64,000 nt of DNA from Lysobacterales bacterium (GTDB lineage Bacteria > Pseudomonadota > Gammaproteobacteria > Xanthomonadales > SZUA-5). Location of the stretch: positions 1 to 64,000 of the forward strand of contig JALHRS010000029.1 in NCBI GenBank assembly GCA_022841325.1. The letters are read 5' to 3'. The notes under the pieces are model-generated. The model worked only from the letters and a program-made list of their open reading frames with translations, made no database searches and was not told where the DNA came from. Of the stretch, positions 42,944-49,884 are shown piece after piece (position 1 is the stretch's first letter; each line of letters opens with the position of its first letter). The position numbers and the translations under genes were made by a program.

Positions 42944-43120
42944 CGTCATTGCGAGCCACCGGTTTCGGCCCGACCCTACCCATGGACAATGAACCCCCGG
43001 CGTCATTGCGACCCCGGGCTTGATCCGGGTGAAGCAGTCCCGATACACATCCTCAGAAGAACTGGATTGCTTCGTCGCTGGGCTCCTCGCAATGACGCAT
43101 CAACAACTTACGATTTGGGT
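42944..43120. repeat. Mosaic CATTGCGA repeat, full copy 2
   Basis: Same order of blocks as at 11421: CGTCATTGCGAGCCACCGGT, CGTCATTGCGACCCCGGGCT, TGGATTGCTTCGTCGCTGGG, CTCGCAATGACG and the tail CAACAACTTACGA. The internal stretch GAAGCAGTCCCG differs slightly from copy 1. Confidence 0.85.
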
Positions 43121-44591: not shown

Positions 44592-44715
44592 TTCGATTTC
44601 ACCCCTGCACATGGGGTTCACGGATTGATTCCTCTGCCCGGTCTCTGGCACTGTCGCAGGTTCGGAGCGCCGGGGAGGGTCGCTTCGCCGCATCAACCAT
44701 CAGGAATATCGCACT

Positions 44716-47178
44716 ATGCGGTGGATCGCCCACAAGTTTGGCGGGTCCAGTGTTGCCAACGCTGCCCGGTATCAAGCCGTCGCCCGACTCATGGTCGGAC
44801 GCGACGATGAAGCTCAAGTGGTCGTGGTATCGGCCATGCAGGGGGTTACTGACACCCTGATCGGCATTACCGAGAAGGCCGCGACCCGATCCGGCGACTG
44901 GGTCACCGAGCTGGAAGCGCTGAAACAGCGACATCTGGCCACGGCCGACGAGTTGCTCGGACAGCAGGCGCCGGCTTTTGCCGCGGCTCTGGACCAGAGC
45001 TTTGCCGATCTGGCCCATCTGCTGCGCAGTGTCGAATTGCTCGGCACCGTGCCGGTCGAGATCGTCGAACTGGTGGCGGGCCTGGGCGAAGTCTGGTCGG
45101 CGCAGATGCTGTCGGCGCATTTCCGGGCGCTCGGCGAGACCGCCGAATTCCTGGATGCCCGCGAGGTATTGCGGGTGACGGCCACCGAACTCAATGTGGC
45201 GGTGGACTGGCTGCCGAGCGAGAAGCTGCTGGCCGAGTACCGTCGCCAGCACGCCGGCAAGCGTGTGGTGGTCACCGGTTTCATTGCCCGGCGGCTGTCG
45301 GACGGGCGCATCACCACGCTGGGGCGCAATGGCAGCGACTATTCGGCCAGCATCTTCGGGGCCTTGTTCGACGCCGCCGAAATCCATATCTGGACCGATG
45401 TCGACGGCGTGCTCTCGGCCGATCCGCGGCGCGTGCCCGAGGCCATGGTGCTGGATCATGTGTCCTACGAGGAAGCCTTCGAGCTGGCCTATTTCGGCGC
45501 CAAGGTGATCCATCCGCAGACCATGGCCCCGGCCACGGCCAAAGGCATACCGGTGTTCATCCGCAACACCTTCAATCCGGATCATCCGGGTACCCGCATC
45601 GATGCCGAGGGCGGTGCCGAGCCGCCGATCAAGGGCATCACCACGATTGGTGGCATGGCCATCGTCACCATCGAGGGCGCCGGCATGATCGGCGTGCATG
45701 GCACCGCCGAGCGCGTGTTTGCAGCGCTGCGCGACGCCCGGGTGTCGGTGACGATGATCTCGCAGGGCTCGTCCGAGCACTCGATCTGCTGCGTGATCAA
45801 GGCCGATGATGCCGATCGGGCTCGAGAAGTGCTGGCCGAGGCCTTTGCCCGCGAGATTGCCCGCGGGCAGATCCAGCGGGTCATGTCGGAGCGCGGCATC
45901 AGCGTGCTCGCCGTGGTCGGTGAGGGCATGGCCGGTACGCCCGGCATCTGCGCCCTGCTGTTCAATGCGCTGGGGCGCGCCAAGGTCAATGTGCGGGCCA
46001 TCGCCCAGGGCTCGTCGGAGCGCAATATCTCGGTGGCGATTGCCGAAGGCGAGGCCACGCGCGCGCTGCGTGCGGTGCACGCCGGCTTCTATCTGTCGGC
46101 ACAAACGCTGTCCATCGGCATCATCGGGCCGGGGCAGGTGGGTCAGGCCCTGGTGCACCAGATTGCCGAGGCCCGCGCTCGCTTGCTGCGCGAAACCCAT
46201 CTGGATCTGCGCGTGCGCGCGCTGGCCGGTTCGCGCAAGATGCTGCTGGACGAGCAGCGTCTGGATCTGTCGAACTGGCGCGAGGCGCTGGCCGATCAGG
46301 GCCTGCCCTGCGATCTGGAAGCCTTCGCCCGGCATGTACAGGCCGAACACCTGCCGCATGCGGTGATCATCGACTGCTCGGCCAGTTCCGAGGTGGCCGA
46401 TCACTATCCGCGCTGGCTGGCCGCCGGCATCCATGTGCTGACCCCGAACAAGCAGGCCGGCGGCGGACCCTTCGAGCGCTACCAGGCGGTGCAGGCTGCC
46501 GCCCGCAGCGGGCGTGCGCGCTGGCGTTACGAAGCCACCGTGGGCGCCGGTCTGCCGGTGATCGGCACGCTGCGCGATCTGATCGATACCGGTGATCGCA
46601 TCGAGCGTATCGAGGGCATCTTCTCCGGCACGCTGGCCTATCTGTTCAACCGCTACGACGGCAAGGTGCCGTTCTCCGAGCTGGTGCGGCAGGCCAAGGC
46701 GGCCGGCTACACCGAGCCCGATCCGCGCGACGATCTCTCCGGTCTGGATGTGGCCCGCAAGCTGGTGATCCTGGCGCGCGAGATGGGCATGCAGCTGTCG
46801 GTGGATCAGGTGCACGTCGAGTCGCTGGTGCCGGCCGAACTGGTCGATGCCGGCGTCGAGGAGTTCCTCAGCGGACTGTCCTGTCTGGACGCGCCCATGC
46901 ACGAGCGCTACCAGACTGCGCACGAGGCCCATCAGGTGCTGCGCTACTGCGCGGTGCTGGAAGCCGACGGTCGCGCCGAGGTGGTGCTGAAGGCCTTGCC
47001 GGCCTTTCATCCTTTTGCGCACATTGCGCTGACCGACAACATCGTGTCCTTTGCCACTTCGCGCTACCGCAACAATCCTCTGATCGTGCGCGGCCCCGGC
47101 GCCGGTCCGGACGTGACCGCCGCGGGTGTGTTTGCCGATCTGCTGCGGGTGGCGTCCGGGCTGGGAGCACCGTTGTGA
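44716..47178 (+). CDS. thrA: Bifunctional aspartokinase / homoserine dehydrogenase I
   Basis: An 820-residue fusion. It catalyses the first step of the aspartate pathway (aspartate to aspartyl phosphate) and the NAD(P)H reduction of aspartate semialdehyde to homoserine. The kinase starts [20 protein letters not shown] and includes FGGSS. Paired ACT domains are at about 320-470 ([20 protein letters not shown] and [20 protein letters not shown]). The dehydrogenase starts [16 protein letters not shown]. The fusion and length match E. coli ThrA (820). No thr/ile-rich leader peptide is visible upstream. The stop overlaps the thrB start (GTGA). Confidence 0.95.
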
Positions 47179-48158
47179 GTGCAGACCAGGAAAATGGAAA
47201 AGGGAAAAGGGAAAAAGGAAAAGCTGGCGTGCGCACAGCTTCGGCCTTCGCGCCGGCGAGTGTGGGCAATGTGGGTGTGGGATTTGATCTGCTCGGGCAT
47301 GCGCTGGAGGGGATTGGCGACCGGGTGACGGCGACGCGGATCGCTGAGCCGGTGGTGCGGGTGCGTAAGATCACCGGGGTGGTGACCGATCTGCCCTTCG
47401 ATCCGGAACACAACACGGCGGCGCGGGCCGTCGCCGCCTGGCGCGCGGCGCTGGACCTGGATTTCGGCATCGAGCTCGATATCGACAAGGGTATCCCGCT
47501 GGGTTCAGGCCTGGGTGGATCGGCAGCTTCGGCCACCGCGGCGCTGACCGCCGCCAATGCCCTGCTGGCCGAACCGCTGACGCCATCGCAGCTCTATCCC
47601 TATGCGCTGGAGGGCGAGCGCGCCGCCAGCGGCAGCCTGCATGGCGACAATGTCGGCCCGCAGTTGCTGGGGGGTCTGGTGCTGGCGACGCCCGACCGGC
47701 TGGTGCCGATTCCGGTGCCGCCGGGTCTGATTGCGGTGCTGGTACATCCGCACTTCGTGCTGGAGACGCGCAAGGCCCGTGAAGCCCTGCGCGGGGTGTT
47801 TGCACTGAGTGAATTCGTGGCCCAGAGCGAAGGCCTGGCGCTGGTGCTGGCCGGCTGCTACACCGGCAGTTTCGAGCTGATCCGTCGCGGTCTGCGCGAT
47901 GTGCTGATCGAACCGCGTCGTTCCTCGCTGATCCCGGGCTTTGCCGCCGTCAAGCAGGCCGCTCTGGACGCGGGCGCGCTGGGAGCCTCGATCTCCGGCG
48001 CCGGCCCCAGCGTGTTCGCCTGGTTCGAGCAGCGCGACGCCGCCGCGGCAGCGGGCGAGGCCATGGCCGCGGCTTTCGCCGACGCTGGGCTGGCCAGTGA
48101 CATCATCATCAGCGCCGTCGCCAACAGCGGTGCCAGCGTGATCAGCAGGAGCGAATGA
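47175..48158 (+). CDS. thrB: Homoserine kinase (GHMP family)
   Basis: A 327-residue kinase that phosphorylates homoserine. GHMP motif 1 is [19 protein letters not shown], motif 2 is [20 protein letters not shown] and motif 3 is [14 protein letters not shown]. The first codon is GTG overlapping the thrA stop, but the next residues [14 protein letters not shown] come from a (GGAAAAG)5 heptamer array and are unlike family N-termini. A second GTG at 47229 gives a start close to [10 protein letters not shown] and has AAGGA about 9 bases upstream. Either start may be used. Confidence 0.93.
47189..47223 (+). repeat. (GGAAAAG)5 heptamer array at the thrB 5' end
   Basis: GGAAAAT, GGAAAAG, GGAAAAG, GGAAAAA, GGAAAAG, lying between the two candidate GTG starts of thrB. 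Confidence 0.9.
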
Positions 48159-48161
48159 TCC

Positions 48162-49499
48162 ATGCGCTATTTCAGTACCCGCGATACCCGTCAGGAATGG
48201 CCGGTGACGCTGGATGCGGCGCTGTCGGCCGGGCTGGCTGCCGACGGCGGTCTGTACGTGCCGGAGCGCCTGCCGCAACTCGGAATCGCAGATTTCCAGG
48301 GTTGCCTGAGCCTGCCGGAAGTGGCCGAGCGCCTGCTGACGCCCTTCTTCGCCGGCAGCTCGCTGGCACCGAAGCTCGGCGAGATCTGTCGCGAGGCCCT
48401 GGATCTGCCGGTACCGATGGTCGAGATCGAGGCTGGCCGCAGCTGGCTGCTGGAGCTGTTTCACGGCCCCACCGCGGCTTTCAAGGATTTTGCTGCGCGC
48501 TTCCTGGCCGCCTGTCTGGCGCGATTGCGCACGCGCGATGACCCTTTGCGCACCGTGCTGGTGGCCACGTCGGGCGACACCGGCGGCGCCGTCGCGGCGG
48601 CATTCCACCGGCGCCCCGGCTTTCAGGTGGTCATCCTCTATCCAGATGGCCGGGTGTCGGCACGTCAGGCGCATCAGCTCGGCGCCTTTGGCGACAATGT
48701 CCATGCCTTCAAGGTGGACGGCAGTTTTGACGACTGCCAGCGCGTGATCAAACAGCTGCTCGGCGACCGCCAGCTGGCCTCGCGCTACGCCCTGACCAGC
48801 GCCAACAGCATCTCGCTGGGGCGTTTGCTGCCGCAGATGGCGTATTACGCCTATGCGGCTTTGAAGCTAGGTCGGGACCGGGGACCCGGGACCGGGAACC
48901 CGGGAGAGCAGCGGGTGGCGCCGACGCTGATCATTCCGACCGGTAACCTCGGTAACGCCCTGGCGGCAGTGCTGGTGCGGGAGATGGGACTGCCGCTGGG
49001 CGAGGTGCATTTCGCCACCAACGCCAATCCCACCCTGTCCGAGTTCTTCGGCGGTGGCGATTACCGCGGCCGTCCCAGTATTGCCACGCTGGCCAATGCC
49101 ATGGACGTCGGCGATCCCAGCAATTTTGAACGCCTGGCCTGGTTCTTCCGGAATCAGGACCTGCGTGCCAGTGGCATCCACGCCCACCGCGTGGACGACG
49201 CCCGCATTCGGGCTCGCATCGCCGAGGGCGAGCGCGACTATGGTCAGATCTGGTGCCCGCACACCGCTTGCGCGGTCGAGATCATGGCTACCTTGCGCCA
49301 GCAGGGCGACAAGTCCCCGATGCTGCTGGTCGCCACCGCCCATCCGGCCAAGTTCGATGATGTGGTCGAGCCCCTGATCGGGCACGCCGTGGATGTTCCG
49401 CCGGCGCTGGCAGCACTGCTGGCGCGGCCGGCCGAGGTGGAAACGCTGCCGGCCACCGCGGAGGCGCTCACTGAGCGGCTGCAGCAGGGCTGGATTTAG
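48162..49499 (+). CDS. thrC: Threonine synthase
   Basis: A 445-residue PLP enzyme converting O-phosphohomoserine to threonine. MRYFSTRDTRQEWPVTLDAA is the family start, ELFHGPTAAFKDFAARFLAA contains the PLP lysine, and TSGDTGGAVAAAFH and PTGNLGN bind cofactor phosphate. Between AALKLG and APTLIIP lies an insert of about 11 residues (RDRGPGTGNPG) encoded by a GGGACC-rich heptamer array. The gene is 4 bases past thrB and ends in TGG ATT TAG, where a 104-bp tandem duplication begins. The reading frame is intact through the insert. Confidence 0.95.
   Translation: MRYFSTRDTRQEWPVTLDAALSAGLAADGGLYVPERLPQLGIADFQGCLSLPEVAERLLTPFFAGSSLAPKLGEICREALDLPVPMVEIEAGRSWLLELFHGPTAAFKDFAARFLAACLARLRTRDDPLRTVLVATSGDTGGAVAAAFHRRPGFQVVILYPDGRVSARQAHQLGAFGDNVHAFKVDGSFDDCQRVIKQLLGDRQLASRYALTSANSISLGRLLPQMAYYAYAALKLGRDRGPGTGNPGEQRVAPTLIIPTGNLGNALAAVLVREMGLPLGEVHFATNANPTLSEFFGGGDYRGRPSIATLANAMDVGDPSNFERLAWFFRNQDLRASGIHAHRVDDARIRARIAEGERDYGQIWCPHTACAVEIMATLRQQGDKSPMLLVATAHPAKFDDVVEPLIGHAVDVPPALAALLARPAEVETLPATAEALTERLQQGWI
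48874..48904 (+). repeat. (GGGACCS)4 heptamer array inside thrC
   Basis: GGGACCG, GGGACCC, GGGACCG, GGAACCC, then GGG, in the coding frame. Confidence 0.88.
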
Positions 49500-49697
49500 G
49501 GTTTTCGGTTGTCGGTTGTCGGTTGTCGGTTGTCGGTTGTCGGAGCGAAGCCTGCGCCGTGGTAGCCCGGAACTGCGCGCAGCGCTGTCCGGGATGGATT
49601 TAGGGTGTCGGTTGTCGGTTGTCGGTTGTTGGTTGTCGGTTGTCGGAGCGAAGCCTGCGCCGTGGTAGCCCGGAACTGCGCGCAGCGCTGTCCGGGA
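49491..49697. repeat. 104-bp tandem duplication starting in the thrC stop region
   Basis: Unit 1 (49491-49594) and unit 2 (49595-49697) both start TGGATTTAGGG, carry five TCGGTTG heptamers (49505-49539 and 49608-49642), then AGCGAAGCCTGCGCCGTGGT and GTAGCCCGGAACTGCGCGCA. The last thrC codons TGG ATT TAG are thus duplicated. The gap continues with GAGCCGCTGCGCGGCAC at 49719. Confidence 0.9.
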
Positions 49698-49884
49698 GTG
49701 GACGCGGCAAAGCCCCGGTGAGCCGCTGCGCGGCACACGCGGGCTGGCAGATCCGAAGAGTTTCAGATTTCTCGTGAACCTCGTTCAGGTTGGGCTAGAG
49801 CCCGGTCTGCAAGGATGCAGCTTCCGTGGTCTGGCGCCTGCGCGCCGACTATGATGCATGGAGTACGCATAACCAGTGCCGAGC

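Follow-up and report, generated by a model that had tools for sequence, protein, structure and literature searches.

We find that the threonine synthase gene (thrC) in the thrABC operon of a Lysobacterales draft genome carries a translated, in-frame array of G-rich heptamers, which is probably one copy of a dispersed cassette (about four CGGGNNN units followed by a GGGRRAGC tail) that settles at tolerant sites and is rewritten in concert. The observations behind this reading are the array sequence itself, the open frame, the extension of a protein loop, the low model confidence in that loop, the dispersed copies and the differing units at orthologous loops. Bacterial simple repeats are usually viewed either as tolerated passengers between genes or as elements that switch surface genes on and off. 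The family described here lies in the reading frame of housekeeping enzymes in several species; its spelling shifts, while its position, the number of units and the phase of the G-tracts are retained. Positions refer to the window, by which we mean the whole stretch of 64,000 nucleotides that was analysed, and all sequences compared are taken from draft genomes.

The heptamer array of thrC

The 445-aa open reading frame scores 225.4 bits against the TIGR00260 profile (cut-off 167.1), which identifies it as ThrC. Pfam assigns the domains Thr_synth_N and PALP, and in a fold comparison the closest solved relative is E. coli ThrC (1vb3, TMq 0.89). The array is short: three of its units are exact, and the fourth, whose G-tract is broken, has one mismatch; a tail follows (Table 1). 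Tandem Repeats Finder reports positions 48873-48905 with a period of 14 and 94% matches. For the two-unit pattern, 100 shuffles give an expectation of 0.00, and the window has two occurrences. The unit is GGGACCS and hence not of the GGGNATC type. The array forms a single arm without an inverted partner, and its RNA folds somewhat better than shuffles do (z -2.45). The reading frame is open throughout ORF 48162-49499. A preliminary description had reported a heptamer array translated inside threonine synthase with the frame kept; this is borne out by the units as read in the sequence, the open 445-aa frame, the TIGR00260 profile and the fold.

Table 1. Features of the thr operon and of the array in thrC (positions in the window)
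Feature	Position	Strand	Basis
thrA, bifunctional aspartate kinase/homoserine dehydrogenase (open frame; true start inside)	44629..47178	+	NCBIfam
thrB, homoserine kinase (start GTG 47175 or downstream)	47175..48158	+	NCBIfam PRK01212.1-4, 331.4 bits, matched from residue 24
GGGAAAA-type heptamer array at thrB start (first codons, or just upstream if the start is later)	47189..47222	+	Tandem Repeats Finder, sequence
thrC, threonine synthase, 445 aa	48162..49499	+	ORF, TIGR00260, PDB relatives
Codons of residues 238-254 (coil between helix 219-239 and strand 255-259)	48873..48923	+	AlphaFold model; codon positions counted
Heptamer array (four units and the initial four bases of the tail)	48874..48905	+	Sequence, Tandem Repeats Finder, shuffles
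First unit, GGGACCG	48874..48880	+	Sequence
Second unit, GGGACCC	48881..48887	+	Sequence
Third unit, GGGACCG	48888..48894	+	Sequence
Fourth unit, GGAACCC	48895..48901	+	Sequence
Tail, GGGAGAGC	48902..48909	+	Common to cassettes elsewhere in the genome (GGGRRAGC)

In an AlphaFold model of ThrC (alignment of 30, mean pLDDT 93.2, pTM 0.93) residues 240-254 form coil, and the block 241-250 has a pLDDT of 55. Judging from this model the repeat encodes a floppy linker directly before PTGNLGN, which is where the insertion had been placed beforehand. We see no evidence of a function of the loop, and the peptide is probably a floppy stretch without a function of its own. Computed removal or addition of one or two heptamer units lets translation stop at residue 253-263, as had been foreseen for a change by one unit, and the frame is kept when three units are removed or added.

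The extended loop in relatives and congeners

For the ThrC alignment we used 30 proteins from the order (60 of the 61 genomes matched; the 30 best loci went into the alignment). The loop from LLPQ to PTGN counts 33 residues here, 30 in the congeners G001 and G002 and 23 in each of the 27 others. In a second, named ThrC set of 80 loci, 51 of the 59 measurable loops have 23 residues, two have 30 (again G001 and G002) and the remaining six have 18, 21, 21, 22, 22 and 31; the other 21 loci gave no match to the loop motif and are excluded from the length count. The preliminary description had given about 11 inserted residues where homologues have a short loop, and had proposed an alignment with relatives; the two sets agree with it, with a net gain of about 10 residues over the relatives' 23. 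No distant homologue with the same loop length and residues but without the repeat was found in the 30-protein set or among the 59 measurable of the 80 loci. The three congeners and the short-loop G005 form one clade in the tree (support 97/95, without a firm internal order). Taken together, loop lengths and tree restrict the longer loop to the genus within our sample.

The same loop looks different in the two congeners. That of G001 holds TCCCGAG (4.7 copies, 100% matches); read on the opposite strand, this unit is GGGACTC. Here the G-tracts belong to the template strand, and the mRNA folds no better than its shuffles (z 0.57). The G002 loop exceeds the common form by seven residues without any repeat, and no decayed array could be traced in it (lag-7 agreement 0.29, p 0.53). 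The other-strand heptamer of G001 and the repeat-free loop of G002 point either to repeated strikes on this loop or to an old expansion that was rewritten, the repeats having been lost in G002. Given that both congeners carry seven additional residues, an earlier lengthening of the loop may have been replaced or overwritten by the array seen today. The data do not prove that the ThrC loops are of common descent, as the copy is single and imperfect and G002 retains no trace of a repeat; separate insertions into one tolerant loop would give the same appearance.

A dispersed heptamer family

A search of the genome (6.1 Mb) with the two-unit pattern gives 65+65 matches and its reversed control 1+1; for the three-unit pattern the counts are 34+33 and 0. 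Arrays were surveyed in a 438-kb sample, consisting of the window and of stretches chosen around GGGACC places. In this sample 113 of the 120 arrays of period 4-12 have period 7 (shuffled sequence: none). By unit they divide into GGGACC (32), GGTTGTC-like (29), GGGGCAC (25), GGAAAAA-like (14), GGGACTC (7), GGGGGCA (5) and GGGGTAC (1). The number of units lies between 3.9 and 4.9 in all 32 GGGACC arrays and between 3.6 and 18.6 in the other families; the ThrC array falls outside these 32, presumably because its fourth unit is imperfect. When arms are aligned, GGGACCG often opens, GGGACCC follows and many end with GGGRRAGC. This tail is also found behind other units (13 genome places against 0 for the reversed control). 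An 18-nt pattern is present in 6 of the 61 genomes, mostly in the genome studied here (G000) and in G005, G021 and G030. In G003, G008 and G031 the reversed control pattern itself gives 28 to 216 matches, which points to another abundant heptamer of GGGSCCA type.

Neighbouring arrays have a preferred polarity. All 12 opposite-strand GGGACC neighbours less than 400 bp apart are ordered GGGACCC then GGGTCCC. Counting neighbours below 600 bp among 40 merged arms gives 12 '+-', one '-+' (569 bp, between two ValS pairs) and one '++'; among the 43 two-unit sites of the sample (below 500 bp) there are 14 '+-', three '++' and three '--'; and for same-family neighbours of all families in the sample (below 600 bp) we count 19 '+-', two '-+', four '++' and one '--'. 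The Y1_Tnp profile has five matches in the genome. Two of these (G000:C14:78695-79003 and G000:C7:53872-54216) have GGGACC inverted pairs at a distance of no more than about 5 kb, maybe by chance.

Copies inside other genes

According to a heuristic frame/GC3 test, 12 of the 32 GGGACC arrays are intragenic against one of 81 in the other families (Fisher p 4.9e-7), a count in which arrays sharing a gene are non-independent, the sample favours GGGACC and no background expectation is included. Family profiles identify ValS (two sites), MetH (two sites), HrpA, IcmF, MnmE and an RND permease as hosts with internal in-frame arrays, and CarA and MiaB as hosts with arrays at the C-terminus; XpsH and XpsI carry them near the N-terminus (profile matches below cut-off). 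One tested ORF, in L134, had no Pfam match. The GGGACC arrays of G030 and G005 are mostly not clearly intragenic by the heuristic, and one G030 array lies in the IcmF linker by sequence. The earlier statement that arrays can enter essential biosynthetic genes thus stands for core biosynthetic genes and reaches wider than ThrC (ValS, MetH, HrpA and others). What finds no support is a lone chance entry into ThrC, considering the seven additional residues in the congeners' loops and the dispersed copies. ThrC itself is required only when no threonine is supplied.

Orthologous sites with different spellings

In the MetH linker G000 has four GGGACCC units, G001 four GGGAATC units (the first imperfect), G002 a mixture of GGGACTC and GGGACCC, G007 GGGGCAC-like units and G005 GGGTCCC-like units, and the array of G004 is decayed (7 of 21 lag-7 matches). 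G003, G010, G011 and G012 have no array at a similar linker length, which suggests that the array may have overwritten native sequence at MetH. Within each of G000, G001, G002 and G007 the units agree (17-21 of 21 lag-7 matches). Across these four the columns C, G, G and G are conserved in three to four of four units and the other three columns in none of four. As 7 is not a multiple of 3, the codon phase moves with every unit, so that selection on residues is unable to keep the units alike; from the sequences, concerted turnover at the DNA level is the reading that best fits the homogeneity of the linker units.

Inverted pairs show comparable differences. They occur at MetH site 2 in G000 and its congeners. 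At ValS loop 1 (comparison covering 8 of the 12 ValS rows) all three congeners have them, with a unit that differs from one to the next, and they are absent there from the five other family members compared. At ValS loop 2 the unit is GGGACC in G000 and GGGACTC in G002; the pair of G001 is mixed, and G003 and G008 keep GGGCCCA-like remnants. The spacer of this loop resembles the sequence of G004 and G007, both without arms. Compared with shuffled sequence, the ValS inverted pair has a much stronger RNA fold (z -8.9). In HrpA, inverted pairs are present in G000 and congeners as well as in G004 and in G007, whose right arm is very short; the G001 pair is unreadable (N), and five further HrpA rows gave no loop. 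Classified by eye, 12 of the 13 readable orthologous inverted pairs of ValS, MetH and HrpA have the same unit type in both arms; the single exception is ValS loop 2 of G001, with arms of different type. The IcmF linker has GGGGGCA-type units in G000 against GGGACC-type units in G030, which belongs to another family. This linker lies behind the B12-binding domain, at about 10777-10803 of L136 (G000:C32:15001-35000) and about 1304-1324 of L186 (G030:C5:58300-60800).

Proposed explanation and alternatives

We propose that cassettes would disperse in this bacterial family and settle where they are tolerated: in loops at the protein surface, in linkers between domains, at gene ends and between genes. 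A site would outlast the divergence of species, and its units would change together at the DNA level, probably via slippage together with conversion or template switching, acting between units and between inverted arms. A cassette may finally decay into ordinary coding sequence with the longer loop retained, and the insertion in the ThrC loop would be neutral. Homogenisation of arms by template switching is described for yeast genes (PMC8604942). It counts against this proposal that the arrays have no known connection to a mobility protein and that the ValS loop 2 arms of G001 differ in type. Possibly, though here we are doubtful, a process of the lineage (driven by an enzyme, a quadruplex or a hairpin) keeps a four-unit CGGGNNN cassette at core-gene spots and rewrites the three free letters in all units and both paired arms of each species; core enzymes would then be left with species-specific floppy loops. 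As 7 is not a multiple of 3 and unit identity does not come from protein selection, the coding arrays offer a natural test of the homogenisation of tandem and inverted repeats in bacteria; they also test how much arbitrary linker peptide core enzymes tolerate.

Selection could also act on nucleic-acid structure, with a quadruplex of the four G-tracts, or the stem of an inverted pair, being at work in DNA or mRNA and tolerated by the protein. The conserved columns of the MetH linker are indeed G-tracts, the ValS pair folds well (z -8.9), and the preference for four units matches the needs of a quadruplex (PMC4692102). We nevertheless consider this unlikely, since the fourth G-tract of ThrC is broken, the G001 ThrC loop has its G-tracts on the template strand with an mRNA z of 0.57, and the ThrC of G002 and the MetH of G004 are without repeats altogether. 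If the cassettes were the terminal repeats of miniature transposons that, for instance, REP-associated transposases mobilise, this would account for inverted pairs of fixed polarity (12 of 12 below 400 bp) and would be in line with the five Y1_Tnp matches and with the GTAG-headed palindromes that adjoin arrays in the window. However, spacers vary between loci, that of ValS loop 2 resembles the native sequence of armless relatives and the ThrC copy is a single arm, which makes such an origin highly improbable.

A local microsatellite, grown by slippage within thrC from a chance GGGACC and unconnected to other loci, agrees with an array that is short and imperfect; moreover, heptamers are over-represented in many bacteria, with slippage proposed as the cause (work cited in PMC4692102). 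Yet the same unit order and tail recur at dozens of genome places with a nearly fixed unit number, and we rate this origin as quite improbable; local slippage alone is disfavoured because the same cassette is dispersed through the genome. ThrC shares one trait with contingency loci, in that gain or loss of a unit shifts the frame (computed) and truncates the protein at residue 253-263, so that a switch turning ThrC off and on within the population might be imagined. This idea is scarcely credible with just three exact units and an imperfect fourth, a nearly constant unit number in the family and housekeeping genes as hosts, and Rehm et al. (PMC4692102) argue against phase variation for the Xanthomonas heptamers as well.

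Comparison with known repeats

G-rich heptamer repeats of GGGNATC type were described in Xanthomonas and Nostoc by Rehm et al. 2015 (PMC4692102). They share with the present arrays the period of 7, a G-tract per unit, the preference for four units, sites that are common to related species with variable sequence, and convergent inverted pairs (reported for Xanthomonas in 70 and 75 cases; 12 of 12 in our family, the ThrC copy being a single arm). GGGAATC, a unit of their type, is itself found in the MetH linker of G001. They are reported there as under-represented in coding regions, whereas here the heptamers are in frame in many core enzymes, and the differing units in orthologous loops are a further distinction. 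G-rich heptamers that prefer four units, form convergent pairs and keep their places are already known (PMC4692102). The frequent in-frame heptamers in core enzymes and the turnover of units at orthologous sites look new; our searches of an open-access library found no paper on in-frame heptamers at orthologous core-gene sites.

Rickettsia palindromic elements lie within genes of functional proteins, and their inverted pairs can form hairpins. In-frame insertion in genes and inverted pairs able to form hairpins are likewise seen here, but our arms consist of tandem heptamers, ThrC has one arm and the spacers are variable; the Rickettsia repeat is one palindromic element of constant sequence, whereas here the unit varies between species at one site. 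These elements are mentioned as in-frame repeats in genes in PMC3733652, which also presents REP elements of the GTAG family as short dispersed repeats that form inverted dimers and sometimes lie within genes. In these respects the heptamer cassettes are similar, and the window has two GTAG-headed palindromes beside heptamer arrays; unlike REP elements, the cassettes show no GTAG head and are tandem arrays. Nematomorph mitochondrial genes contain coding palindromes, long inverted repeats in translated core genes, of which both arms encode conserved residues (PMC6649704), while the arms described here are heptamer arrays in variable loops.

Operon neighbours and other repeats in the window

An array also stands at the start of thrB, so that two adjacent genes of the thr operon carry arrays. 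Downstream of thrC there are two identical GTAG-headed palindromes, GTAGCCCGG...CCGGG (49562-49593 and 49665-49696), each behind a GGTTGTC heptamer array, which we take to be like REP elements; a 103-bp block with palindrome and array is duplicated at 49487-49702. Between positions 43000 and 55000 no known RNA family was found at gathering scores. Near the beginning of the window, at 1624-1792, an 88-bp unit is repeated 1.9 times with 93% matches.
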